From Flammulina velutipes (taxonomy: Eukaryota > Basidiomycota > Agaricomycetes > Agaricales > Physalacriaceae): DNA of 64,000 bases. The position numbers and the translations under genes were made by a program. The stretch is taken from contig JAALGH010000011.1 in NCBI GenBank assembly GCA_011800155.1, positions 1,426,001 to 1,490,000 on the forward strand. The letters run 5' to 3'. Positions 7,356 through 22,740 of this stretch are shown one piece after another. How positions within the stretch are numbered: the stretch's first letter is position 1; the number at the start of each line of letters is the position of its first letter. The notes under the pieces were generated by a model that worked only from the letters and a program-made list of their open reading frames with translations, searched no databases and was not told the DNA's origin.

Positions 7356-10300
7356 TCAAGGCTTGCGATGAATAACGACTTGTCCGACGTACGAAAGTTC
7401 TTGCATCCGTAAAAACATATCGGCGTCGATGTCATCGACGACGAGACAATCCATCGGACTCTTGATCCCGTCTAAGTATCCCTCGTCCATGAGTTTCACT
7501 CTTTCCTCTTTAGTTTCCGCCCGGAGAAGTTGAGGAGAGACTGGTTGCCGAGAGAAATCCGGAACGAGTAGAGCACCTCTAATGATACAATCGACGGGAA
7601 CGATGACGGTGTCTGCTCTGCGCTTGGAACGAACCCGATAAAAGCCTAGGTCGCGATCTACTTGTGTGTGCCCCCTCGATGGCCTCTCAGAATACGGATG
7701 AATATGAGCAAGAAGTAACCTTTGCTTGCCCATGTCGAGATGGAAGATGGTAACGAGCCGCGCAAAGTATTGCCCGTCATCGGAGTTGATGATAACACTG
7801 TCGTAGCGCGGATGTTTGTAGAAGAGGGGGGAACACTTCAAATAATCTGTTGTAGCCTTCCAATCGACCTTGCTTTCGTAGTGGACCTTGAGTGATCCGT
7901 AGAGCTGGATCTAACGGACATTGAGTTTGAGTTTGAGTTTGTATTGAGATTAGCGTAACGTACCTTTTGCGTCTCTTTGCTAAACCCATCGAAGTTTTGA
8001 GAACCGTGGGGAAATCGTTCCAGATTCGTGTCCATAAAGCCTTTGCAGAATCGTTCTAATTTGAGGGCAAAACCTCTGTAAGCGATGTCATTTTCCTTGC
8101 GAGCTTCCAATTCCGCAAGGGTGAAGATACCGCCACCTTTCCCTTTCTTGCCGTGAGCAGTTACATGGCCAAACACTTGTTCTGGCTCATCCTCATCCTC
8201 AGAATCTGACTCCTCATCCTGAGGTTTAGCGCTTTCCATTTGCTCGTCACGGAGATCGATCTGCTGCCGAATGAAACTCGAGGTGTTAAACCAGTGGTCA
8301 AGGCGAAGGATCTGATACAGAACCCTGGTCAGCTGATGTCGATGCAAAACTAGCTGAATCACTTACTTGTTCATCTGTTTCCTTAAAGTTAGTCTGTAAC
8401 TGGTACGACTGCTTTAAAGGACCATGCATCTTCTCGTTAGGTTTCGTGTTCATGTTTCTGGTCACCCCTTTCGCAAGTATGTCGTCGAACAAATGGACAT
8501 GCGAGTGCATCTTCGGGAAATTCCAACGATATGCACTATCAGAGTCCTTTTCCCGGCCGATTTCATCGTATTTCTTTGATACATCAGTCTTGAGCCAATA
8601 CCGATAATAGAAACTCACGTACCTGCATGAGTTTCGAGAATCTCTGCTGCTCCCGACGTCCAGCTGCAAGAGTATCCTCCGTATGCACCCATAGCTCAGC
8701 GTACATATCGAGGGATATGTAGCTCCGGATACACTGGAGAAAGAGATAGCCATCAGGATCGTCGTCGCGTGTTAAGATATTATGAACACAGAATAGGATT
8801 TGCTAATTGATTATTAGTTGGCGCCAGCGTCGGTCGTTGAAATAGAGCGACATACCTTGGACAGGTCCTCGAACTTCCCTCCATCAGTGAATCTGGTACT
8901 CATAAACCCTTTGAAATAAGACAGGTTCCTCCATCGCGGAAATAGAGCCATTCTACGGAGTCGAACTTTGGTAAGTACGCGAAACGCTAATAATAACAAG
9001 TCATGCCATACTGTGTGTCTGCTAACTTGCTCAATACACCCTTCTTAATTCCAGGTGTTTTCTTTTCCAACGCTTCGATAAGTTTGATCAGGTGGGGGAG
9101 CTGATGTTTGCCCCACAGTCCGTCGTGGAACGCGTGTAATCGATCGAACGAAAGGGCTTTGTGCAGATCGAAGCGCTGCAACTGCCAGAAACAATTCTGT
9201 TAGAGTACTATCAGCATGCAACTCGTGAGCGTGGAATTTGATCATACCTCGATGGGGCGGAGGGATTCAGCCTTCAAGATTTCCTCTTTTTCGGTACCGG
9301 TCGTCGCTTCCATTGCCTTGGCCAATAATTTCTTGACGCCATCCGCTGTTCGCATGGGATACCGTTCGTGCATTTTGATCTGCATGGTATTTGGGACTAG
9401 GCATGTATTACACGGAAACAGGCCTCGCACGCCTCTAATCAAAGACATCATAGCCCTATGACAGAATATAAGAAACATGGCCCGACGCAATGATAGAACT
9501 TACTGCTCTTCGTAGTCTGCCGAAAGAATAAGCAGCGTAGGAAAGAGTAGAAGAACGTCGCCGTGCAGTGTCTTCCAGAAGACTCCGGTTTTCACAGACT
9601 CAGTGATAGTCTCGAGCAAGAAACTCATGGCTTTATGCCAGACGAGACGCTTGTGGGAGGCATTAGCATTGTCGGAAAATCGAGCGTCATCCTGAGGCTA
9701 ACATTGTATCAGTCATCTTGCATCGGATGATTAAATGGTTGCAGCTTACTATCGGAAGCCATCCGACAACTCTTCCACCTCCAACGCCGTTTCCATTCCG
9801 AATCTCTACTGGGAGATTGGCACACCGGACAACTACTGGGTATCCTTGAACCGTCCCGAACGAAGAAAGACGAGTCTTATCTGCGTAGAGGATGAACGCT
9901 AATGGCTTTCCAGAGGCGTCAGGAAGTTCGGACTATGTCATTATCAATAATATAACGTCGATTTTACTTTGATTCACCGCACCTGTGCTGTCCAAAAGTC
10001 ATCGGCGGTCCAGGGCTCGTGTATAAACCTATGGAACTGTTCTGTGTTACTGTCGAACTTGGACAGTTTTTGAGCGTCCCAGACAAAGTGCGGGGCAAGA
10101 GTTGGATCATTTAACAATTCTTCGAACCAATCCCAAAGCGAGCGATAGTGTATGGTGTATTGGAAACTGAACTTATCGTCCATTGGGACATTAAACGTTG
10201 CTTGGGAGAACTGCGTAGGTAGAGTCAGGATCTCTGAATACTGATAGTATTGCATTCGCATACCTGGGCGCGAAGGTGGGACGCTGATTCCCAAGCATTT

Positions 10301-11009
10301 GCCCATTCCTTCGAGTTAGTAATACTCATCGCTTCATCACCATCCTTGCGACGGAGGAGCAAGGAGTATAAGCGATCAATCTCGACTCGATTCAGTCTTG
10401 AATCTAGAATGAATTCCGCTGTCTCGAAGTCGAACAATGAGTGAAAAGGGGAGAATGGAGTTGGGTCGATTGGGGTCTGAAGAGGGCGCGTGTTGGACGC
10501 GTAGTCATCGAAATGACACGTTTCCGTGGGCTTTTTTGCAGACGGATGGTACTCTGTGCGGATGTCGTCTTCTTCATATGGAGCGGGCTGGTTGTTTGCG
10601 GCGCGACTCGCCCTTCCGCTGCGAGTTGAGCCACTTCGAGCCTGCTTCTGTGGTTTGTTGGCTACAGGAACTAGCTCGTCTGTAAACAATATTTACTATG
10701 TATGAAAGCAAAATAAAACACAGCACATCACCTTTCTGACTACTTTCCTTGTCTTCGTCGAGTTTTCTGAGAGTTTCTGTGTTATCTAGTACACGCTGCC
10801 TGTGCGCAGTAGCTAGTAGAATAGTGAGCACAGATTCTACACATCGATTGATACATACCATGTATGGTTCCGGAGGATGGTATGGGAAGGTCTGACGTCG
10901 GCAGTCTACCTTCAATATTCTTCTTCCTGCAGGCGCGTTCGTGGTTTGAAACACCTTTAGGCGTAGAGAAGCACGAGCTGCAGTAAGCACATTGTATCTG
11001 GTGTGACAT
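7356..11009 (-). CDS. Plavaka-type (CACTA-like) transposase
   Basis: About 14 exons join in frame to roughly 1000 residues. The start is MSHQIQCAYCSSCFSTPKG, a C2H2-type finger typical of these transposases. It is followed by a disordered linker, then the core blocks HEPWTADDFWTAQ, LAFILYADKTRLSSFGTVQG, GGGRVVGWLPI, LLILSADYEEQAMMSLIRG, DLHKALSFDRLHAFHDGLWG and PNEKMHGPLKQSYQLQTNFK. The C-terminus (DCLVVDDIDADMFLRMQEL) is the usual end for this clade. The family is the basidiomycete Plavaka group of CACTA/EnSpm-like DNA transposases, whose RNase H-like nuclease core cuts at element ends. No internal stop or frameshift was seen, so the enzyme may be intact. It belongs to a different clade from the transposase at 17501. 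Confidence 0.85.
7356..11009 (-). mobile_element. Plavaka-type DNA transposon, coding part (ends not located)
   Basis: The coding part of the element is given. I could not identify its terminal inverted repeats. The stretch 11010-11585 upstream of the start is gene-poor and may be its 5' non-coding end. Confidence 0.6.
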
Positions 11010-11585
11010 TTCCGAAAGTAAGAATATGTTGGTTCTGGTCAATGGCTACCTTTATCCGACGCAGAGACGGAGGTCGATATTGTCTAAACCGTTCACCGTT
11101 TTTATAAGGTACACATTTATATGAATTCAAGCGGTACATTATCTTACGCCAAACGACAAAATTGGTATTCGACTGAATTTATCCGGTCTGAGAGCTGCTC
11201 AGAAAATTAGTATGATGTGAGACTATCAGTTCGAGGGCGCGTACGATTGACTGTGATTGCAGAAATTACACATGACGATGGTGGCATCAGGTGGTGGGGC
11301 GGGGTTCGCTGCATCAGTCCCAAGACGAATAATGCGAACCATTGACTAGCCGAGATTAGGGAGCTATTACTGGTAGATAACGGATGGCTCACGATTGAGC
11401 CGTCTTCGGTATCGCATTGCGTCGAACAATCTATCGTAACAGAAGATGAGTATTGACAAGACGTTACGTTGGACTTGGAACATACCTTCGCATGGGACCT
11501 CGGGGCTTTTGAGTAGAGACTCCATTCTCGGATGATGGATGAATCGTTAATGTTGTCAAAAACCTGTATTTAAAAGCATTCCAGT
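11010..11585. other. Gap upstream of first transposase
   Basis: No certain gene is present. On the minus strand a possible three-exon reading frame runs from an ATG at 11523-11525 to a TGA at 11226-11228. It gives a short cysteine-containing peptide (CEDCSTQC, then MCNFCNHSQ). It could be an upstream exon of the transposase or chance. Confidence 0.3.
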
Positions 11586-11641
11586 AGTCAACCCCGGAAT
11601 TGAACCGGGTCAGCCTTCTTGTTAGCATTCAGACATTCCGG
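11586..11641 (-). tRNA. tRNA-like 3' half (Pol III B box), partial
   Basis: Reverse-strand sequence contains a perfect T arm, CCCGG-TTCAATT-CCGGG, followed by a 7-base acceptor-like strand (GTTGACT); the B box is GGTTCAATTCC. A possible anticodon-loop remnant, ATGCTAA, precedes it. No good D arm or A box is found upstream, where the inverted repeat of the large transposon begins at 11642. It is either a truncated tRNA gene or the head of a SINE. The amino acid cannot be assigned. Confidence 0.35.
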
Positions 11642-11652
11642 TACATCAGGAA
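11642..11652 (+). repeat. Left terminal inverted repeat (candidate)
   Basis: TACATCAGGAA here is the exact inverted partner of 21242-21252. Beyond 11 bases the match continues only loosely (GGTCCATAGC against GGGTATGGC). Confidence 0.5.
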
Positions 11653-11689
11653 GATGGTCCATAGCTTTAGTCTACATTAACTCATTTTA

Positions 11690-12422
11690 AGGAACTTAGG
11701 TTTCCTTAAAGAAAGTAAGTCACCAAGTTGCTCGAGTGTCCTTAAGTCAAAGTCCATAACATAGCCAATACACAAGTCATCTTAAGTCATATCTAAGATA
11801 GATTTAAAGCTCACTAAGATGATATAGGGTAAATAGAAGTCATACATAAGATAGTTGTAGGATAATCTCAAGTTACATGTAAAGCTTGATCAAGACGCAC
11901 TAACAGATACTTAATATGTTCTAAGGCTGTCTAAGGTAGCGACAAGTTATACACAAGATAGCTGCAAGATGATGTTAAGTTGTACATGAGGTACTGTCAA
12001 GGTATACTTACATGAGCTTAGAATACTGTAAGTCTGTCTTGACACAGTTTCAAGTTCAATGTAATTCAGTCTCAAGTAAAATCTAAGGTATAATCAAGCT
12101 AGATACAAGACAGTTTGGGAAAGAACTGAGAGTTACATATGAGATGTTTAAGTCATATCTCAGTCAGCATCAAAGTAAGCTTAAGCTATACTCAAGTAAA
12201 TCTAAGTTGAACTTTGTATCTCTACCAAGCAGATCCAAGCTATCTCAAAAGCAAATCTAATTAATTTTAATATAGGTTCAAATCAACTCACACCGAAGAA
12301 ATCAATGCGGAATATCACGATTTATTAAAGCCAGGAATACAGTAATGATGACCAAAAGAGTGATAAAAGCAGGCAATAGTTAAAATGATGATATGATAGA
12401 TATAGATGCAAAAGAGAGAAAA
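11690..12422. repeat. Left subterminal repeat region
   Basis: About 700 AT-rich bases without a gene contain many degenerate copies of short motifs such as AAGTCAT, CTAAGATA, AAGATAG and CAAGTT. The right end has the same kind of words in the opposite orientation. Such subterminal arrays are transposase binding regions in CACTA-like elements. Function is inferred from position and family. Confidence 0.55.
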
Positions 12423-14311
12423 TCAAGCATTATGATAGGCCAGGGCCTCAGCCTCAAGACCGTCCTCTAGACGAGCCTCATCCTCAATAGCTTCAAAGTT
12501 GGTCAAGGTATACTCATCAACGACTTCGTTGAGCATGTACGACAGGTTCGAATTTGTCCTATTGCAAAGTTAGATAGCAGAGATACTCAATACGAAAGAA
12601 CTTACAACATATGTTCGAAGGCACTCTTCATGAGCCTAGCAGTGTACTTCGGGGCTTTCTCTTGAAGTTTGTTGAATGTCGCCAAGTGATGGTAGTAGCG
12701 CGGGGCAACAGCAGCAGTGAATTCCTTCTCGACACAAATACCCTCGCTCCAGAGACCGATGGCAAACTCGTACTAGAAATAGAGGTAAGACATCAGTAAC
12801 AAAGTTCAATAAGAAACGTACCACTGTCGCAGTCAACGCAAAGGTTGGTGCAGGCAACATGCGGGTCCGAAGCATCTCTCTGAAAATCTCCGAGTTGGCG
12901 GGAGCCTTGGAAATGAAAAACTCAAGGCGAGGGAGTGTGAGGAAGATCGACGACCCAAAGGGTTCATTAGCGTTGAACGTGAGAGCCTAGATAGTGGTGA
13001 GAAAACGTATCAGATAGAGAGAAGACCGTACATTTGGATCAACTGAGCCGTACTTGAAATGGCCAGCTTCAATGAGCCAATTGGAACGCTTCTTGACAAC
13101 GCCGGCCGGCGTCTTGTCATCGAAGCCATAACGAGTTGGAGTATCAGTCTTGCCTTTGCCAGAGTAGCTGTTGATGAAGGCATCACCGCCATAACGGGAC
13201 TGGGAATGATGAGAAAAAGTCAAAGAGACAAGAGCAGAGACGTACGTATGTGCAAACCTCGTGGAACTTCTCCTCGTCGTTCAAGAGGCGGCCGTATGCA
13301 GCTTCCAGATGAGGGGACGCAAACGAGGATTCCATGGCAGCTTGGCGGACACTCTCCTTGTAGAAGTCGTCCTTGTCCTCAAACGAGGGGTAGGCATTCT
13401 CGAGTGCAGCACGTTTGCGAGCGACCTTCTTCGCAGCTGCGGCGAGAACTTTCGTGGTGGGGGAAAACATGCTCGTGGTGATCTTTCCAGAGCGACGGCG
13501 GAGAGAATCGTCGTAGCGTGCGCGAGCATTCCTGAGCCTCTTGTCGGCAGCAGTACGGGCAGTGGAAACTCTGGAGGAGGAGGCACGGGGCAAACCTTGG
13601 CGGGAGACGCGGCGTAGAGGAGACCCGTCGTCATCGTTGACAGAGCGACGACGCCTGCGTGGAAGGGGAGTAACTGGTGTGTCATCCTCAACATCCATCT
13701 GGGAGGATATGAGATACAAATTTTGAACGATATGGGCACGTACCTCGTCACTGGTCTGAGCAGCACCGGCTGCACCTTCGTCGTCGGTGTCAAAATGATT
13801 GTCTTGAGGGCTGCTCACATCCGAGTTGTGCCCGTTGTTCTCCTCATCAGAGGGGTCTTGAATTTCGGTGTCTAGAAGGTCAGAATGAGATTGGTGTCAA
13901 AGAGAGCAGCCTAATATGTACGTACCATTGTCAACATTGCGCCCCTTGTTGACGACAGGCTCCTTGTCAACAACGCGCCCCTTTCCAAAGAAGACGTCGA
14001 GGTCATCATTGGCCTGCGCTGCGGGGGAGGAGGGAGTGTTCTCGTTCTCGTCCTCGTCGTTCATGGCATCAGCACGAGCACGAATGTCTGAAAGAAGATA
14101 AATGTTGGTACAACAAGATGAGTTATTGCGTACCAGCTTGACGCTGCTCTTCCTGAGCCTTTGCTTCGGCACGCTGGCGACGCTGAAGCTCAGCCAATGC
14201 CTTCTTCTCTGCACTGGATAGCGACGACTTGGTAGTAGCGTCCTTGGTAGGCACAGAAATCTGGCTCTGGCGGCTAGAGCGAGTGGTACGGTCCGTGCGC
14301 GTGGGAGCCAT
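12423..14311 (-). CDS. Transposon-borne DUF6532-like protein
   Basis: About nine exons give a protein near 490 residues. It starts MAPTRTDRTTRSSRQSQ and has a coiled region rich in Ala/Glu/Arg (KKALAELQRRQRAEAKAQEE). Acidic and basic disordered linkers follow (RRRRRSVNDDDGSPLRR). The globular C-terminal half contains SRYGGDAFINSYSGKGKTD, ALTFNANEPFGSSIF, FALTATVYEFAIGLWSEG and HHLATFNKLQEKAP. This half resembles the DUF6532 family that is very abundant in agaricomycetes; the family call is from memory of its pattern. The last exon is acidic and ends AYHNA. It shares its orientation with the TET/JBP gene 218 bases upstream, so both may serve the element. A TATA-like TTTATAA about 95 bases before the start fits a promoter. 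Confidence 0.6.
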
Positions 14312-14528
14312 GAGAGACGACGACAAGAGAATAATTAGATGGATGAGCAAATGAGTGAGTGAAAAAGAAAAGAAAGGATGAGTGGCAGCAATTGTCGAAC
14401 ATGATGGTTATAAAGGAAGTTGATGTCCGGAGTTCCCAGACTAGTGTTACATCGTGTTCAGGGATTCGGAATTAAAACAAAATCATTAGTGCAGTTCGGC
14501 GTACAGCGTCAAAGGCATCCCTAGTACT

Positions 14529-16373
14529 CTACACTTTCCAAACAGGAAAATAAACTAAGCAGTCCTCTAGACGGGCCTCACGATCCCTCTTCCACGCCTC
14601 TATCTCCTCTGGAGTAGCGTTCTTCTCCCAGTTTTCCTCCGACTGGCATCCCCGAAAGGCCCAACGGAATAAACCTCCCGCTGAGTAGGATGTCACAGAG
14701 TACCGGGTCTCGCCATCCTGAATGGCCACGTTGGAGTGAACTAATAGCGCTGACGGTAGCCAGATCGTCGCGCCGGGCGGAAACTCGATGGCTAGACCAA
14801 GATCCCAAAGTACAAGATGTCCGCCAAGCTTAGGGTTGAATTTTCCTGCTGCCGTGACCGCACACCAACCGTGAGGCAGGTTGTTGGCGTCAACATGGTC
14901 ATAGGATACATGATGGGGGCCGTAGTTTACAGTAAATGCGGCCATGGGAAGGTTTGGGAACGGCATAATCAATTTCCCGTCCCACTCATTCAGGAATTTG
15001 AGGACCTCGCTATAATGTGCATGCATCCAGGGATTATAATTGCGCCACGTTGCTGTAGCATGTTAGCTGTAGCCCTGTAAAAGTAGGCGGCCGACTCACT
15101 GTTTAGATGTCCCGCTAACCGAATGAAATCTGGATCTTGGACTAGACTTTCCAGAGCGCGAGTATTGACCTCGCTGTTGTCTACAATACCAGGCGCCTGC
15201 AGAAACATTCAGCATAAGGATACCAACCTGAAAACACCTTACCAATCGACCCCCGCCATGCGAAAAACCATACTGCATAGCAGGGTTGGGGCTTCGCGGG
15301 TTGATAAGATGTTTGTCCAAGAATGAGCACCTGTTGCGCGCATCCTCAATCTTGGAAGCGAGTCTGTCCGTGAGGTGTGGCCAGTCCGCAGCGTTGGGCA
15401 TTCCACCAAGCAGCATCATAACCCGATCGTCGCATGCAAGGAAAGGGTGGGTAGTAAGGCCGTCCCAGCTGATCACCTTCAAATTCGCGTCCCGCACATC
15501 TTGCAAAGTGCGCCTAGTACGCATAAACCGCTGACGACGCGCCACCCAGGCCCCCTTCGCATATGGAAGCTTCCCAGAGTCGAAATCGGGAAGTTGAAAA
15601 GGCTCTGCCTCGCGCTTTCTCTTGTGTGAGACGCCTTTGACACCGCCGTGCTCCGCTAAGAACTGCTCGCGAGCTTCCCGGCGGTTTGCTCGTTTCTTCG
15701 CGTTGCGCCTGTGTTGCTGTTCAGCGGTTTTCTTCTTGCACGGCTTGCGCTGTTTGGGAGAATCCGATTGGGCAGGGGATGGCGCCTGGTGAGAGCTGGG
15801 AGCGGTTTGAGTCGGAAGGATCGGTGATCCTGGGGGAAGGGAAAATGAAAATGAAGCGAGCGAGGGGATTGGGTTGACAGTAGGGGCCTGCGCCCGTGGC
15901 TGAAGACGGGTGGGCTCTAATGATTCGCCGCGCGCAGGTTTTCGACGTGAGACCTGGCGACCAGTCGGCTTCTTTCGCAAAGTTTTGCCAGTAGGCGCGT
16001 GAGCCGGCGTCTTCGCTGAATGCTGGTTTCGCCGTGATGCGCTGGGTTGGGTGGTGCACGACGTCGCGCGGGGAAGGGACTTGGAGTTGGAAGGGTGACC
16101 AGCGGTGTGCGCAATTCGGATACGCTTCGAGCGGTGTGAACCAGTATTTATGGCAGGGGAGTAGTCGGAGTCGGTGTCATCTGCGCTGGTGGTGGAATCC
16201 AAGTCAGTCAAATCAGAGAGCGCGTCCGACACGCAGTCGCCTCCGTCCGAGAGCTCTGAGAGGTCTGAAAGTTCGGATTCGGCCTCTGATCTCTCATTGG
16301 CGCGTCTCAGAAGCTCCTTTAGATCTACACCCACGCGAAAGACGCGTCCGGGGGGTGTTTGAGAATCAGACAT
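14529..16373 (-). CDS. TET/JBP-family 2-oxoglutarate/Fe(II) dioxygenase
   Basis: Three exons give about 580 residues. The N-terminal 250 residues are disordered: an acidic SELSDLSELSD region, then Ser/Pro-rich and strongly basic stretches (KKKTAEQQHRRNAKKRANRR) that could bind DNA. The dioxygenase domain follows the second intron, which removes 48 bases and brings TTWRNYNPWMHAHYSEVLKF into frame. It contains SYDHVDANNLPHGWCAVTA with the HxD iron ligands, GGHLVLWDLGLAIEFPPGA, the distal iron histidine in LVHSNVAI and the 2-oxoglutarate arginine in ETRYSVTSYSAGGLFRW. TET/JBP enzymes oxidise 5-methylcytosine or thymine in DNA. All catalytic residues are present, so activity is likely. It is transcribed away from the transposase gene and lies within the same element. 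Confidence 0.85.
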
Positions 16374-16829
16374 CTAGGCAGATAAATCGTCAGCTTCAGA
16401 TGCAACAGCGAAATAAAATGCAGTGTAAATGTACAACGTCGCAGCACAGACCTCACGTTCGCGATATCCATAGCCGGACCGCGTCAATGGTGTCTGCTTT
16501 GCAAAAGGTGGAGCGAGAGATTTCGCGGTGTCCACGGCCGGACCACGTCCTCTCTCGCGCCATAGAAGAGTAGAAATATAGAATATAGAATAATGGGTAG
16601 AAGGAAAGACAAATCGCGCACCTGTAAGAGCACCGCACCGCCGTCGTCGTAGTTTGGTATCAAGAAGTTTGACGGTCGGCGCTTAGTGCTTCTTAGGCAG
16701 GCAATAGGGCAGACACAGCCACCTATTCGTTGATCACCTACCACCGTCGCTCTGCTGTACTCACTGCTCTTGCCAAGGATGATGGACCGATGAACGATGG
16801 GCGATGGATGCTGATGTCGACGAAAATGG
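16374..16829. promoter_or_regulatory. Upstream region of TET/JBP gene with paired repeats
   Basis: No gene is seen. Two similar 19-base boxes, TCCATAGCCGGACCGCGTC at 16467-16485 and TCCACGGCCGGACCACGTC at 16531-16549, lie in tandem. The second is enclosed by the inverted arms GCGAGAGA (16513-16520) and TCTCTCGC (16551-16558). The layout suggests protein-binding sites between the divergent genes of the transposon. This is inference. Confidence 0.4.
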
Positions 16830-17244
16830 TTGAGCCAATGTGAGTCTGTCCGTAATGATCTTGTTCATGTTGACGAAGCCCTCTTTCTAGCTACATTACA
16901 AAATGTACCACATCTCTGCCTGGCCGTCGTAGGCCGAGAATTCTACGAACATCGATGCAACGCTCCTATACGATGGCATCCTCGACTCTCTGGTCTTGAC
17001 GATCACCCCACAGATTCTTCCCACCTTGGCTCCACAATCGACGCAAGATTCATATATCTATACGATGGTGCCTTCGACTCTCCGTATTTCTATCCTCGTG
17101 TCCCGGCTGGGCACTGCTTTAGCGCCGCCAAACGTCGAGCCTTTCTGGACATTTCTGGGCCAACCTCAGTACAACAGGTGCTTCGCCGATGAGCGACTGC
17201 GCGCGGCATGGCGGTTCCAACGTGGACACTTTCGGCTTCCATAG
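16830..17244 (+). pseudogene. Unassigned coding-like segment inside the transposon
   Basis: Two overlapping frames read as protein-like sequence (LFLATLQNVPHLCLAVVGREF, then LRISILVSRLGTALAPPNVEPFW) and end at a TAG at 17242-17244. A phrase near CTATACGATGG followed by CTCGACTCT occurs twice about 80 bases apart. No family is recognised. It may be a decayed third passenger gene or a chance frame. Confidence 0.25.
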
Positions 17245-17500
17245 GAGGTTGCAGCTAGAGAGCTGATGCGGATTCTTATGACGACTTTGAATTGATATTG
17301 GTGCGTGCATGTGCTGGACTTGGGAGACGTACACTTACGAGGCTGTACATCCCATATAATCCTCTAAATAATGTAGCTGTCTAAAATATCATGTATGCGC
17401 ATACTTGTTGCTACGGCAGTCGAATGCAGTGCTATTCTTATGCTGTGTCATTGTATAGGTCGTTTCAGTGATCCGAATCAAACTGTCTTTGCTATCTACC

Positions 17501-20500
17501 ATGCATCCCGTTTTCTGTCCGGCTGGCTGTGGGCGCCATTTCACCACCGAGAAAGGCTGCAATCTTCATCTTCGCCAGGCCAAATCATGCAAATGGTACC
17601 GCTCGTACGAGAAGCAGCCCGCCGACACAGGGAATTTGCAAGCTCAGCCAACCGAGGACGACGTCGAGGATGATTTCACCTTCGCTGACTACGGTCACGC
17701 TGATCCACCTCGCAATGACCGGGACTCAGACGATGGCGGTAACAGTGACGAAGAGGACGAGGACCCCGCGGAGGTGATGCAAGAATATGAGGAGGAGAAC
17801 GATGTCTTCCATTTCGTTGACCTCGAGCCACCGGTTGATGAAGCTCAGCTTGGAGAGGCTGGACCGGGACCTTCCACCCTCAACAGTCGACGGATAGGCG
17901 CTATGCTGGGGATGAAGCGAAGGATACTCGACGACGATGACGATACTCGAGTGGATGTTGCCAACACCACTGCTGGAAAAGTGATACGGATGGACGAGTC
18001 ACTTCTTGCTCGATGGCAGAACATTTTCGGCACTGGTGAAGGGGATCCGAAGAATAGCACTGCCGATTCAAACCGTTTTGCTCCCTTCGCATCCGAGTTG
18101 GATTGGAAGATCGCTCAGTGGGCGGTTAAGGATGGCATTGGGCATAATTCATTTGATCGACTGCTAAACATTCCAGGAGTGCGTCACACTTTCTTTCTTA
18201 TACTCGCACTAATCCTGAACAGGTGCGAGAGAAGCTTGGTCTTTCTTTCAAGAACATACGGGGCTTGCACCAGAAGGTCGACGACATTCCTACTCGCGCT
18301 GGAAGCTGGAAAGTCAAACGGCTGAGCTTCCCAGACCGCCCCAATGATAAATTCACTCTACGCCATCGTGACATCCTGCAGGCCATCCGAAGCCTCTGGG
18401 GGGACCCGTCATTATCACATCACCTTGTATATCGCCCAAAGGCGGTTTTCTCCGATTCAACAAAGACGGTCCGGGTATTCAATGAGATGTGGACATCCCG
18501 TTGGTGGTCCTACATACAAGTACGTTCTGGGTTACTGGGTTCTTTTTTTTGTCTCATGATTATCCAGAGCAAACTCCCAAAAAAGTCTTCGACAGTCGCT
18601 CCCGTCATCCTTTCGACGGATAAAACGCAGCTCACGCAATTCTCGGGGAGCAAGCAAGCATACCCCGTCTATCTCACTCTCGGCAATATCCCTAATCATC
18701 TACGTCGCAAGCCCTCGCAACAAGCTTGCATTCTCGTTGCCTACCTTCCAGTCGAGAAGTACAGCAAAGGCCAATTCTCGAAGCAAGAGCACAGTGCGCG
18801 CTACCAGCGCCTATTCCACCGTGCTATGCGCATCATCGTCGAGCCGTTGATCGCTGCAGGCAAAGATGGTGTCGAGATGGCAAGCGGAAATGGCGAAGTT
18901 CGTCTCGTCCACCCGATACTAGCCAGCTATGTCGCCGACTTCCCTGAGCAGTGTCTTGTTACCTGCAGCAAGTACGGAACCTGTCCAAAGTGTCGCGTCG
19001 CTGCCGACTCTCTCCAGGACGCCTCTGCGTCGCCTTTACGAACTCAGGCCTGGACGCTGGGCGTCATGCGCGCCGCGCGTGAGTCGTCTGATTCGGAGGC
19101 CAAATACTTCAAGAACTGCATGCGCGAGGAGGTATCTGGTTATGTACACCAACCGTTCTGGGCCGACCTTCCATACACCGACATTCACTTCTGTATCACT
19201 CCCGACGTCCTCCATCAGCTTTATCAGGGTGTATTAAAGCACCTTATTTCTTGGTGCCAGATTCTTTTGACGAAGGAGGAACTCGATCGGCGAATCCGTT
19301 GCCTACCATACGCAGTGGGGCTGCGACACTTCAAGAACGGCATATCAGCTCTATCGCAGATCAGTGGTACAGAGAGGAAGAACATGGGGAAGATTCTCCT
19401 GGGCTGTCTCGTTGGGACGCGTATCAGTGGCAAGGGCATCGCTGCGTGCCGGGCCATTCTCGACTTCATTTATCTGGCGCAGTACAGCACTCACGACGAC
19501 GTTACCCTCTCCTACATGCAAGACGCACTCGATGCTTGGAACACCAACAAAAACTACTTCATCACCGTCGGCGTCCGCGAGGATCTCAACATCCCAAAAT
19601 TCCATTCTTTGCAACACTATGTCGACTCTATCCGAAACCTGGGCGCCACAAACAATTTCAATACTGAAATGTTCGAACGGTTACACATCGACTTTGCAAA
19701 GAAGGCGTGGAGGGCGACAAATAAACGCGATGAAGTTCCTCAAATGACCAAGTGGATTCTCCGCCAGGAGAATGTCAGTGCGTTCGAGCGCTATCTAGCA
19801 TGGGCGAAAGAGGAAACGGAGAAGCAAGCACAGCGTGTTGCAGCAGAGAAGGCTAAGGCAGCAACGTTGAGAGCAGGTGTTTCGGGATCGTCGACCGCAG
19901 GACCGTCGTCGTCTAACGCAGCAGCATCATCGTCGACCATGGCAGTGCCGTCGTCGACCGCAGGACCGTCGCCGTCGTCTAATGCAGCAGCATCATCGTC
20001 GACCATGGCAGTGCCGTCGTCGACCGCAGGACCGTCGTCGTCGTCGACCGCAGGACCGTCGTCGTCGTCGACCGCAGGACCGTCGTCGTCGTCGACCACA
20101 GGACCGCCGTCACCCACCCCGGCAAGCACCTCAGACCCTCCCTCCAAATTGCCGGCCTACTCTGTCCCTCAGACTATTTCACTACCCATACACCCAACTT
20201 GCCCCAATAAACCGCTTCTGTCTGTTCAGAAGCAACACAACGCTCCCATGTTTTCTACGCACCTCAAGGAATATCTCGCTCTTTACCAGAAGCCATCACA
20301 GGACAACGCCGCCGACTTCACCCTTCCTTTTACTGGCCTCGACATCTACCATTCCTTCAAACTCAGCCTCGAAAGTCTCCACGATAACTCAGATGAGACA
20401 AATACAGTCAAGGCTTCTCCTTTACACGACGGGCGTTTTGATACTGTCATCGTATACACAGGCGATGATGCTGAGGCTACGGGGCTGGCAGGTACATTTC

Positions 20501-20929
20501 TTATGTGGCGTTCATATAATTACAACTCAACTTTTGATAGGAACACGTGTTGGGTGTGTTCGTGTTGTCTTTCGTCTACCAATCGAGATCAATCTTGGAG
20601 GCCTCGGCAAGTATTCAGCACCAGCAAATTGGCCGCGCGAACCACTAGCCTACGTTCATTGGTATACGCCGCCGAAGCTCAGTACACAGGACGCGAAAAC
20701 GCACAACATGCCATCTGTTCAGAAGGCATACTTGCGGGATGGAGTGACGCCCGCTTGGTCAATTGTCCCTTTGGCAAATGTGCGTCAAGCATGTCAACTT
20801 ATACCTCACTTCGGTAAAACACCATGTGGCGATGACTGGACACCTTCGAATGTATTAGATAAAGTAGATACATTACTTGTGAATAATTGGCTTAGTTTAT
20901 ATACGTACCAGACAGTATATAAATCATAG
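17501..20929 (+). CDS. Plavaka-type transposase with N-terminal zinc finger
   Basis: Four exons give about 1090 residues. The first residues form a C2H2 finger (FCPAGCGRHFTTEKGCNLHL), then an acidic linker. The transposase core shows FNEMWTSRWWSYIQ, VILSTDKTQLTQFSGSKQAYPVYL, RKPSQQACILVAYLP, GVEMASGNGEVRLVHPILAS with CxxC-type metal ligands in KYGTCPKC, ITPDVLHQLYQGVLKH and MFERLHIDFAKKAWRA. These are Plavaka signatures. A Ser/Ala/Gly/Pro tandem repeat (19889-20106) follows, then the C-terminal block GCVRVVFRLP, PLAYVHWYTP and WTPSNVLDKVDTLLVNNW, brought into frame by a 49-base intron near 20491-20540. No disruption was seen, so the transposase may be active. It is presumed to mobilise the TET/JBP and DUF6532-like genes beside it. 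Confidence 0.85.
19889..20106 (+). repeat. In-frame Ser/Ala/Gly/Pro tandem repeat in transposase
   Basis: Repeated TCGTCGACCGCAGGACCG-type units encode SSTAGPS blocks with interspersed SSNAAASSSTMAVP blocks. The repeat forms a flexible linker between the nuclease core and the C-terminal domain. Unequal recombination could change its length. Confidence 0.8.
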
Positions 20930-21241
20930 TATCTTGACACATATTAGACCTACTTGAATCAACCTGTGGCTCTTCTACTGTTCATCATATACCTGGTTTT
21001 CCTTGAGATATCTTATTGGACCTTAACACAGGTCAATATCTTAGCTCAACTTGGTCTGCCTTATTATTCCTTAATACATGCTCTAATCTCAGTTGACCTT
21101 GGGCCTGCTTTATTATGCCTTAATACACACTGTATTCTTGAGTAAACTTGAGTGACTCAAGAACTTTCAATATAACCTCAGAGAGTCAAGATGCTTCAAT
21201 ATATAGGTGTACTCTTGAGGTGAATAAATGCCATACCCTGT
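20930..21241. repeat. Right subterminal repeat region
   Basis: This gene-free AT-rich stretch has repeated words (TTGACCTT, CTCAACTTGG, CTTAATACA, CTTGAG). Read on the opposite strand they resemble the AAGTTGA and AAGATA words of the left end. Confidence 0.5.
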
Positions 21242-21252
21242 TTCCTGATGTA
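21242..21252 (-). repeat. Right terminal inverted repeat (candidate)
   Basis: TTCCTGATGTA is the exact reverse complement of 11642-11652. Confidence 0.5.
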
Positions 21253-21873
21253 GGGCGATCGATAATGGCCAGTAGCGAGAAATTCCCAGACATACCCGAT
21301 CCTTTGACGTGATAGAATCCTGGACGCGCAAGCTTTAGAAGAGTGTTGCGCGCTGTAAGCTGCCGTTAGGCTGAAGAGTGTGTGGATTCTATCCCCATGA
21401 AGATTCGTCCACGTATGCGCTGGGAGGGATGGCCAAGTAGTCCAGGATTCAGAGATGATGATTCGTCCGGCCTCCGGGTTTACTACCGCAGCTGCCGCTA
21501 CAGTGGTGGAATAAACTGCCGTTCATTCCTTCGACGTCGACGAATCGGTCTTTGAGGCATGTTCCGATATGAGTGAATTCTGAGCTGTGTGGTTGCATCA
21601 CGGCGAAAGACAAGAAGTTTTATCACGCGCGCATCACGATCGTTGTTGGCAGTCCGTTTCAAGTCCGATTATTATTCAACTTGTCACTTCCACTACTGAA
21701 TGGCCCTCTTAAATGATCAATCCTTCACAATCGCCGTCCTCTTTGCCCCCCAGGTTTTGGGATTCACATCTCGTTCAGGCTTCCGTACAAACCCGCCTAC
21801 CCGACTCCTCAAAGGTGTCACCCAATCCCGTCGCACCTCGTCCGCACACCGTCGCCACTCTCTATATCCTAAT
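21253..21873. other. Gap right of the transposon
   Basis: I see no gene here. The end of this stretch is the leader of the coiled-coil gene that starts at 21874. Confidence 0.5.
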
Positions 21874-22740
21874 ATGCCTGCACACGAGCCCTTCCCTACC
21901 TCTGGATACGCCCGAAGCATAGCCAAAGCTATTCTTGACGCCGGTGGCGTCGACTCCGATTCGGACAGGTACTTGTTATCATATCTTCAGTCTATCTCTG
22001 ATAATAATTAATCTCGTCTTCATTGAAGGTCTTCCGATAGCCAAATGAGCGTTGACCCAGCGCCTTCCGTTGCCCAAGCGCCTTCCGTTGCCCCAGCGCC
22101 TTCCGTTGCCCCAACGCCTTCCGCTGCCCTAGCGCCTTCCGTTGAAATCATTAATACCGTAACTTCATTGGCAGCTGCGTCGGGGTACACCAGCGACGTC
22201 TCCATGGCTGGCAGTGCTCCTACGGAGTCTAGCACCAGCCCCAAATCCTTCCGTGGTGTTGGTCTGTCGAGGCGCCGACTCTCGTCCATCGGCTCTTCAT
22301 CTTCCGATAGTCCGTTGTTGTCTCTTCGTCAACAAGTCGAAGTGCAAGGTAAGTTTTATGTCGTTTCCACCGATTTCACTCTCACTCATGAACCAATCCA
22401 GCCCTTCGTATCAGTGACCTTGAACTTATCATCGCAAATCTGGAAACCAATGTCAAAGAACGGGACGTCAAGATCGCCAGTCAGGATGCCACGATCGCCA
22501 GTCAGCAGAACACCATCACCGTTAGAGACTCCACCATCGCTGCGAGAGATCTCACCATTGCCAATATGGATTCACTCAAGCAGAATTTCACTAAAGCAAT
22601 TCTCTTTTCGGAGAAACTGCTCGCTGCTGAAGAGGAAGCCCAGACCGAGAACTTCAAGCATGTCGCCAATCGTGCTATGTCGTTGGAAATGGTCAAGACA
22701 GGAGGCCCGTCTTCTAGCGCTGCGTCGGGGGGACTTTGAT
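21874..22740 (+). CDS. Coiled-coil protein with PAPSVA repeats
   Basis: Three exons give about 250 residues. The start MPAHEPFPTSGYARSIAKAI is followed by an intron that joins DSDR to SSDSQMSVD. A proline-rich repeat (five APSV-type units, DNA 22058-22144) and a Ser-rich region come next. After the second intron a long heptad-like helix reads ISDLELIIANLETNVKERDV and then near-repeats of RDxTIAxxDxTIA, ending in a Gly/Ser tail. The helix predicts a dimeric coiled coil. No family or function is recognised. Confidence 0.6.
22058..22144 (+). repeat. 18-base tandem repeat encoding APSVAP
   Basis: Five copies of a unit near GCGCCTTCCGTTGCCCCA lie in frame in the coiled-coil gene. Confidence 0.8.

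Follow-up and report, generated by a model that had tools for sequence, protein, structure and literature searches.

A complete PlavakaB-type DNA transposon of 9,607 bp has been confirmed at positions 11644-21250 of the window (the whole 64-kb stretch of DNA that was analysed), with further copies and target duplications. It carries three genes, encoding a DUF6532 protein, a dioxygenase of a family supported by fold searches as TET/JBP, and a Plavaka transposase. We think it fairly probable that this is an autonomous cut-and-paste element whose dioxygenase oxidises 5-methylcytosine (5mC) placed by the host and thereby keeps the genes of the element expressed. The host is presumably a mushroom-forming fungus, to judge by the distribution of the dioxygenase homologues. 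The features are as follows.

11642..11643: left target-site duplication TA, beyond the sequence shared with the other copies, where CG and TG are found
11644..21250: complete PlavakaB-type DNA transposon, 9,607 bp; two more full-length copies share both ends exactly
11644..11652, + strand: left terminal inverted repeat CATCAGGAA, from end comparison between copies
11644..12422: left subterminal region, rich in AT and depleted of CpG (6 CpG over the first 780 bp, an observed/expected (o/e) ratio of 0.27)
12423..14311, - strand: DUF6532 gene with 8 exons, encoding 518 aa (residues 244-453 match Pfam PF20149 at E 6.8e-20)
14529..16373, - strand: TET/JBP-like dioxygenase gene, 3 exons, 583 aa (homologues, Pfam Tet_JBP in relatives, fold searches)
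14529..15052, - strand: dioxygenase catalytic exon (exon model pLDDT 89.2)
14895-14897, 14889-14891, 14736-14738 and 14703-14705, - strand: dioxygenase residues H462, D464, H515 and R526, inside the catalytic exon
16374..17500: intergenic region between dioxygenase and transposase, presumed promoters; normal CpG (o/e 1.11), aligns poorly between copies
17501..20929, + strand: Plavaka transposase gene, 4 exons, 1095 aa (Pfam PF18759, E 4e-109)
19888..20111, + strand: in-frame repeat array of 24/66-bp units inside the transposase gene (Tandem Repeats Finder)
20930..21250: right subterminal region, AT-rich, zero CpG within 321 bp
21242..21250, - strand: right terminal inverted repeat CATCAGGAA, from end comparison between copies
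21251..21252: right target-site duplication TA, on the same basis as the left

Ends and copies of the element

The initial annotation placed the boundaries at an 11-base inverted repeat. This repeat is present, at 11642-11652 and 21242-21252, and the boundaries drawn from it were 2 bp off on each side. By itself such a repeat is weak evidence: with one mismatch allowed, at least two matches were obtained in 29 of 100 shuffles of the 64 kb. This frequency is what could be said for three unrelated genes having come to lie by chance within a chance repeat, a reading with next to no probability that is refuted by the three copies, whose ends are identical while their 2-bp duplications differ. Searches of the genome with the left 100 bp and with the right 152 bp each gave at least three scored matches, and three full-length copies were found at separate sites with both ends exactly in common. 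In copies C6 and C21, the left-end match begins at base 3 as CATCAGGAA, and the bases directly outside the ends are TA/TA in the window copy, CG/CG in C6 and TG/TG in C21. Because the matches start at base 3 and the outer bases differ between copies, the element extends from 11644 to 21250; the same comparison shows that the terminal repeat is perfect over 9 bp and that the outer TA is a target duplication. The boundaries are thus settled by the other copies and not by the inverted repeat. The termini CATCAGGAA..TTCCTGATG are present in 3/3 copies, and the copies with short target duplications for which the initial annotation proposed a search are real.

The three genes expected between the repeats were all recovered as open intron models of 518, 583 and 1095 aa, built from the letters alone with introns set by eye at GT..AG. 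All three are under purifying selection, with dN/dS between copies of 0.09-0.11 for the DUF6532 gene and 0.15-0.17 for the transposase, and similarly low values of 0.09-0.10 for the dioxygenase domain. No RNA family matched at gathering score within 11000-22000.

Transposase and DUF6532 partner

The transposase, predicted to be unbroken and of Plavaka type, proved to be both: the model is open, and it matches the full Pfam Plavaka domain (PF18759) at 365 bits, with zero match to the KDZ domain (PF18758) at E 0.1. PlavakaB elements are characterised by CATCA..TGATG termini, a 2- or 3-bp duplication, and two motifs that lie between the second D and the last E, C(2)C and H(3-4)H (Kojima, 2025; PMC12730594). 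In the window transposase a candidate for the C(2)C motif, CPKC, lies at residue 464. Target duplications of Kyakuja/Zisupton elements are 7 or 8 bp (PMC12730594). A KDZ origin of the transposase was ruled out on the Plavaka match, the lack of a KDZ match and the 2-bp duplications.

The accessory gene, described earlier as DUF6532-like, encodes a true DUF6532 protein, which scores 72.2 bits against PF20149 (Pfam cut-off 24) over profile positions 1-193 of 194. In this genome 9/10 DUF6532 loci lie within 10 kb of a Plavaka locus, and DUF6532 is a regular Plavaka partner, including in elements without the dioxygenase. A protein search with residues 215-518 yielded 6,122 candidates, 0 of them at E 0.001. 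Copies thus exist, with the 9-bp repeat at their boundaries, a transposase outside KDZ and a DUF6532 gene, and the outcomes that the initial annotation had named as counting against it did not occur.

The dioxygenase and its putative substrate

The HxD, distal H and R residues reported as kept are indeed present: H462, D464, H515 and R526 are conserved in 51, 50, 53 and 51 of 54 aligned rows, respectively (94 homologues were found), and R526 is presumably the 2-oxoglutarate-binding arginine. The window protein has no match to Pfam Tet_JBP (PF12851), which is matched by 15/54 family members at E 0.01 (best E 5.4e-7). In fold searches, the predicted model of a close homologue displayed the TET fold, and the closest folds among the matches listed were 5mC oxidases, which supports the TET/JBP assignment made earlier. 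The enzyme belongs to neither of two described types. The PE type was ruled out on HxD instead of HxE: the motif is HVD in the window dioxygenase and in both other copies, the acidic column of the 54 rows holds 50 D, 2 N, 2 gaps and 0 E, and 23 family sequences read from this genome, including that of the window, comprise 22 HxD and 1 HxN. The AG type is marked by G/S and D at +5/+11 from the HxD histidine, G331 and D337 in CcTet (PMC12730594). The window enzyme has N467 and C473 at these positions, each found in 52/54 rows by a gapless count that ignores loop indels. A further ground against the AG type is the low identity to CcTet, the sole AG sequence used: 13% for the homologue model in its best structural alignment, and 17-19% for the window exon alone. 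At E 10, a sequence search with the family profile did not pick up any CcTet chain.

The departure from the CcTet residues can also be read as a sign that the enzyme modifies DNA without being a 5mC demethylase, acting instead on 6mA, on thymine (JBP-like), by adding a side group (CMD1-like) or by leaving a stable oxidised mark. CcTet is active on 6mA too, and CMD1 has the same fold and a different product (PMC12730594). With 5mC oxidases as the nearest folds listed and candidate C5 methyltransferases in the host genome, we regard this as rather unlikely.

The dioxygenase gene is placed between the DUF6532 and transposase genes, which are common to the complete PlavakaB elements examined. Two-gene elements at C10:1340465-1347203 and C3:3124066-3130475 resemble the window element in their ends, 2-bp duplications and a DUF6532 gene divergent from the transposase, but lack the dioxygenase (tblastn, E 0.01). 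Such complete elements would allow the dioxygenase to be a chance passenger, useless to the transposon. This is very unlikely: the gene is open in 3/3 copies and occurs in 10 of the 15 members of the transposase group, with 3 more unclear, and its low dN/dS, like that of the adjoining genes, largely refutes the reading. It is extremely unlikely that the gene was brought into the Plavaka element by the insertion of a KDZ (Kyakuja) element. Although 7/33 dioxygenase-family loci lie within 10 kb of one of the 91 KDZ loci among the matches listed, this proximity is not above chance, since random placement gave a mean of 3.9 and a maximum of 10 (with the largest coordinate seen taken as contig end and transposon clustering ignored). 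The nearest KDZ locus among those listed is 480 kb from the window dioxygenase, the transposase lacks a KDZ match, and neither KDZ ends nor a KDZ transposase were seen within 11644-21250. The gene also holds the same position in the three copies and in two divergent elements, and the DUF6532-dioxygenase segment is swapped between copies by recombination.

CpG-poor ends and known anti-silencing systems

CpG-poor ends were found in 8/8 of the clade members measured (clade n=15). In an initial contrast, ends of elements with the dioxygenase gene were CpG-poor, whereas those without it (C10, C3 and, for the left end only, C8:848.6 kb) were not; for C10 and C3 this refers to measured stretches of 780 and 330 bp. 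By family, the contrast between elements with and without the gene was small: 3/3 vs 0/3 at the left end (p 0.10) and 4/4 vs 0/2 at the right end (p 0.07). A direct effect of the dioxygenase was dropped as an explanation, because dioxygenase-free members of the same transposase group are CpG-poor as well. The near-identical copies C15 and C21:120 kb, and like elements on C22 (outside the tree), have CpG-poor left flanks (o/e about 0.3-0.7) without the gene, and the CpG-poor flank is therefore characteristic of the group. In C3, which lacks the dioxygenase, CpG is also scarce in the terminal 200 bp on the left (o/e 0.28), and in a Kyakuja-like insertion it is scarce in the terminal 200 bp on both sides (0.36). 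There was no clear excess of TpG/CpA in the CpG-poor ends, so plain deamination is not supported. The ends, initially described as repeat-rich, contain no arrays by Tandem Repeats Finder; motifs at or just above the shuffle limit weakly uphold the description (AAGTCA, 6 copies on the left, shuffle 95% limit 6; CTCAAG, 5 copies on the right, limit 4). A motif search for a DUF6532 or transposase site found none convincing in common between the two ends.

In the reading we prefer, the transposase would recognise the CATCAGGAA ends with their AT-rich, CpG-poor flanks, and DUF6532 would be a core accessory protein, its role a guess. The dioxygenase would oxidise host-deposited 5mC, chiefly in the genes, where CpG is normal, and in the divergent promoter region; this oxidation would keep the element genes expressed. 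As judged from sequence, self-protection from methylation by a putative 5mC oxidase is plausible. In maize En/Spm, a relative of the CACTA/CMC group, a second protein, TnpA, binds to subterminal repeats and opposes the methylation of the transposon; to our knowledge En/Spm encodes no DNA-oxidation enzyme. Unlike the window enzyme, the VANC protein of Arabidopsis VANDAL elements is not known to be a TET-type dioxygenase. VANC is DNA-binding, and VANDAL/VANC elements are similar in that the transposon encodes its own anti-silencing protein (PMC10398659).

TET-bearing PlavakaB transposons have been described in Agaricus bisporus and Gymnopus confluens, with a Plavaka transposase, CATCA..TGATG ends, 2-bp duplications and an internal TET/JBP dioxygenase gene as in the window element (Kojima, 2025; PMC12730594). 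The earlier suggestion of a distinct element type therefore went too far: such elements were already published, and DUF6532 is the neighbour of Plavaka at most of its loci. What is new relative to the text of that paper is that the Plavaka-borne enzyme is of the HxD type and not of the reported HxE (PE) type. The regular partnership with DUF6532 is also new; the name is absent from the main text of PMC12730594, where published elements may carry the gene unnamed (supplements were outside the search), and no link to TET-bearing Plavaka elements was found in the literature searched. The TET-bearing Kyakuja/Zisupton (KDZ) elements of Agaricomycetes carry AG-type enzymes near CcTET that share HxD, the TET fold and a transposon-borne setting, but differ in transposase class and in their longer target duplications (PMC12730594); the window enzyme family lacks the G/D pair said to mark AG. 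It is distinctly unlikely, in our estimate, that a PlavakaB sublineage combines DUF6532 as a DNA-targeting protein with a non-PE, non-AG TET-like effector in an exchangeable anti-silencing cassette between CpG-purged transposase-binding ends. If true, escape from host methylation would have two layers, with cassettes swapped among element copies and ends at which methylation would be unable to block transposase binding.

The published picture is widened: in addition to the HxE enzymes already described, an enzyme of the HxD type has been acquired by a Plavaka element. DUF6532, a domain of unknown function, gains a firm setting as a usual transposase partner. The genome also offers matched test material, in PlavakaB elements that either carry or lack the dioxygenase and have the same ends and the same partner gene. 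With a transposon-borne TET enzyme, a mobile element seemingly carries the eraser of its own silencing mark, and the dioxygenase may help the element to escape silencing.

Boundaries and copies of the element

The window lies at C12:1426001-1490000 of a genome of 38.1 Mb in 23 contigs, which the searches covered. The leftmost 100 bp and the rightmost 152 bp of the Plavaka transposon each gave at least three scored matches genome-wide: the window and two copies on other contigs, C6 and C21. In both copies the left-end match starts at CATCAGGAA, two bases inside the repeat first proposed, and the flanking dinucleotides differ (TA/TA in the window, CG/CG in C6, TG/TG in C21). The element therefore spans 11644-21250, with perfect inverted ends of 9 bp and a 2-bp target duplication. 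The initial annotation had placed it at 11642-21252; the true ends lie two bases further in on each side. Copies with common ends and short target duplications, which it had named as support for the boundaries, were found at C6 (CG) and C21 (TG), and the element is real and well bounded.

The C6 copy (9,920 bp) carries all three genes in open form. The C21 transposase is broken because about 25.9 kb sits in its first exon. Inspection by eye gave this insertion CA..TG ends and a 7-bp duplication (GTTGCCA), and it holds two Kyakuja/Zisupton (KDZ) matches among those listed, at C21:64537 and C21:82913. These features fit the published description of Kyakuja, and the insertion may comprise more than one element.

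Copy and related elements on other contigs of the same genome
C21:52197-88601: copy spanning 36.4 kb, with the ~25.9-kb insertion inside transposase exon 1
C8:2609078-2622022: element, TA duplication, perfect 15-bp ends starting CATCAGGAA
C2:376457-385830: element, CA duplication, perfect 15-bp ends starting CATCAGGAA
C10:1340465-1347203: two-gene element, 6,739 bp, TG duplication, transposase and DUF6532 (Pfam profile), no dioxygenase
C3:3124066-3130475: two-gene element, 6,410 bp, CA duplication, transposase and DUF6532 (Pfam profile), no dioxygenase

At 9491-10168, immediately to the left of the window element, another Plavaka transposase is weakly matched on the minus strand in three pieces, one with an internal stop. 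They are perhaps the remnant of an older element.

The three genes and their partnership

All three genes are under purifying selection between copies. For window-C6 and window-C21 respectively, dN/dS was 0.09 and 0.11 in DUF6532, 0.10 and 0.09 in the dioxygenase domain, and 0.15 and 0.17 in the transposase, the last value being for exons 2-4 alone. Constraint is weaker towards the dioxygenase N-terminus, over residues 1-259 (0.37 and 0.19). Net indels preserve the frame in every exon compared.

Genome-wide, Plavaka gave 68 matches in 38 loci, DUF6532 11 matches in 10 loci and the dioxygenase exon 34 matches in 33 loci. A Plavaka match lies within 10 kb of 9 of the 10 DUF6532 loci, and in all nine DUF6532 sits divergently upstream of a transposase; the exception, C8:553511-553875, has no Plavaka match within 15 kb. 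Plavaka lies within 10 kb of 9/33 dioxygenase loci (random mean 0.9, maximum 5, in 2,000 trials), a count from which the C21 copy is absent because of its insertion. KDZ matches, among those listed, were near 7/33 (random mean 3.9, maximum 10). The closest named dioxygenase homologue is from Hymenopellis radicata (45% identity), and the named homologues are from mushroom-forming fungi, to which the host presumably belongs as well. At C8:251806-253109, where Plavaka has no match within 15 kb, a pair of dioxygenase-like genes belonging to this family run in opposite directions about 0.2 kb apart. A KDZ-adjacent dioxygenase relative at C19:95070-95588 has HTN replacing HxD and, judged by this motif, may be inactive.

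The C8 and C2 elements each have transposase, dioxygenase and DUF6532-like genes, ordered as in the window element. The DUF6532 call in C2 comes from resemblance to the window protein (E 5e-9); the first open frame there has no DUF6532 match. The C10 and C3 elements hold transposase and DUF6532 without the dioxygenase, which therefore looks like an addition between two standing genes; the window DUF6532 protein itself had no match in either (tblastn, E 0.01). Three near-identical Plavaka loci (C15:51147, C21:126660 and C22:10768; two on small contigs) have no dioxygenase nearby. Their Plavaka and DUF6532 matches contain stops, some of which may be introns, and their probable left end is altered to CATCTGGAAA.

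A probable mosaic history

In a midpoint-rooted transposase tree built from 18 of the 38 Plavaka loci, a supported branch sets 15 apart from C3, C8:853 kb and C10, which have no dioxygenase. Among the 15, ten have the dioxygenase inside the element or no more than 10 kb away, three are unclear (at 9-26 kb) and two lack it. In a tree of 23 of the 33 own-genome dioxygenases and 32 of 94 outside relatives, the Plavaka-linked genes require at least three label changes, reflecting either repeated uptake or exchange, or a single uptake with losses. Judged by eye, loci pair up alike within groups in both trees.

The closest pair among the three copies differs from segment to segment.

Informative sites supporting each pair (window+C6; C6+C21; window+C21)
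Left subterminal stretch: 15; 90; 11
DUF6532 gene: 102; 39; 40
Dioxygenase gene: 432; 58; 52
Transposase gene: 43; 162; 22

Over most of their length, the transposase genes of C6 and C21 are 96-100% identical, falling to 90% at the repeat array, but the dioxygenase genes only 52-84%. The dioxygenase domain has a synonymous distance of about 0.9 between the window and C21, versus 0.24 for DUF6532 and 0.16 for the transposase. On these comparisons, the simplest reading would be that related elements swapped the DUF6532-dioxygenase segment, with a distant one as donor of the dioxygenase part.

CpG content and relation to described elements

CpG-depleted stretches of the window element
11644-12422 and 20930-21250: CpG-depleted ends, with normal CpG inside the element

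CpG observed/expected (o/e) over the left 780 bp was 0.27 in the window, 0.44 in C6, 0.38 in C21, 0.29 in C8 and 0.36 in C2; over the right 330 bp it was 0 in the first three, 0.31 in C8 and 0.20 in C2. The C9 right end gave 0.20. The window element's interior is near 1.0. Outside the element, all 492 overlapping 330-bp bins had at least two CpG, and the mean o/e of 12 AT-rich bins was 0.97 (lowest 0.65). Left and right values were 0.93 and 1.35 in C10 and 0.83 and 1.10 in C3 (0.28 in its outermost left 200 bp), both without the dioxygenase; the left end at C8:848.6 kb gave 0.94.

Of the 15 transposase-group members, 8 were measured at one or both ends and all are CpG-poor there, C15 and C21:120 kb (left end) among them. 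These two have no dioxygenase match within 15 kb, so CpG-poor ends characterise the transposase group and are not demonstrably due to the enzyme. Between the window and C6, CpG transitions are commoner than GpC ones (0.31 vs 0.18, poorly aligned stretches included), an excess that would fit methylated CpG. The host genome has C5-methyltransferase matches at four loci.

In the available text of Kojima 2025 (PMC12730594), TET-bearing PlavakaB elements of two Agaricales have CATCA..TGATG ends and 2-3-bp duplications. Plavaka-borne TET is placed there under the PE type (HxE), whereas the window enzyme is HxD; the AG type (CcTET-like) is reported there solely for Kyakuja and Zisupton. The main text of that paper does not mention DUF6532. 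One paper, PMC8955403, names Plavaka and DUF6532 in the same Pfam comparison and draws no link. A published link between DUF6532 and a Plavaka element was not found in the literature searched, which was largely open-access. The results of greatest use are an HxD enzyme within a Plavaka element, DUF6532 as a standing partner, the apparent exchange of the accessory segment and the CpG-poor ends.
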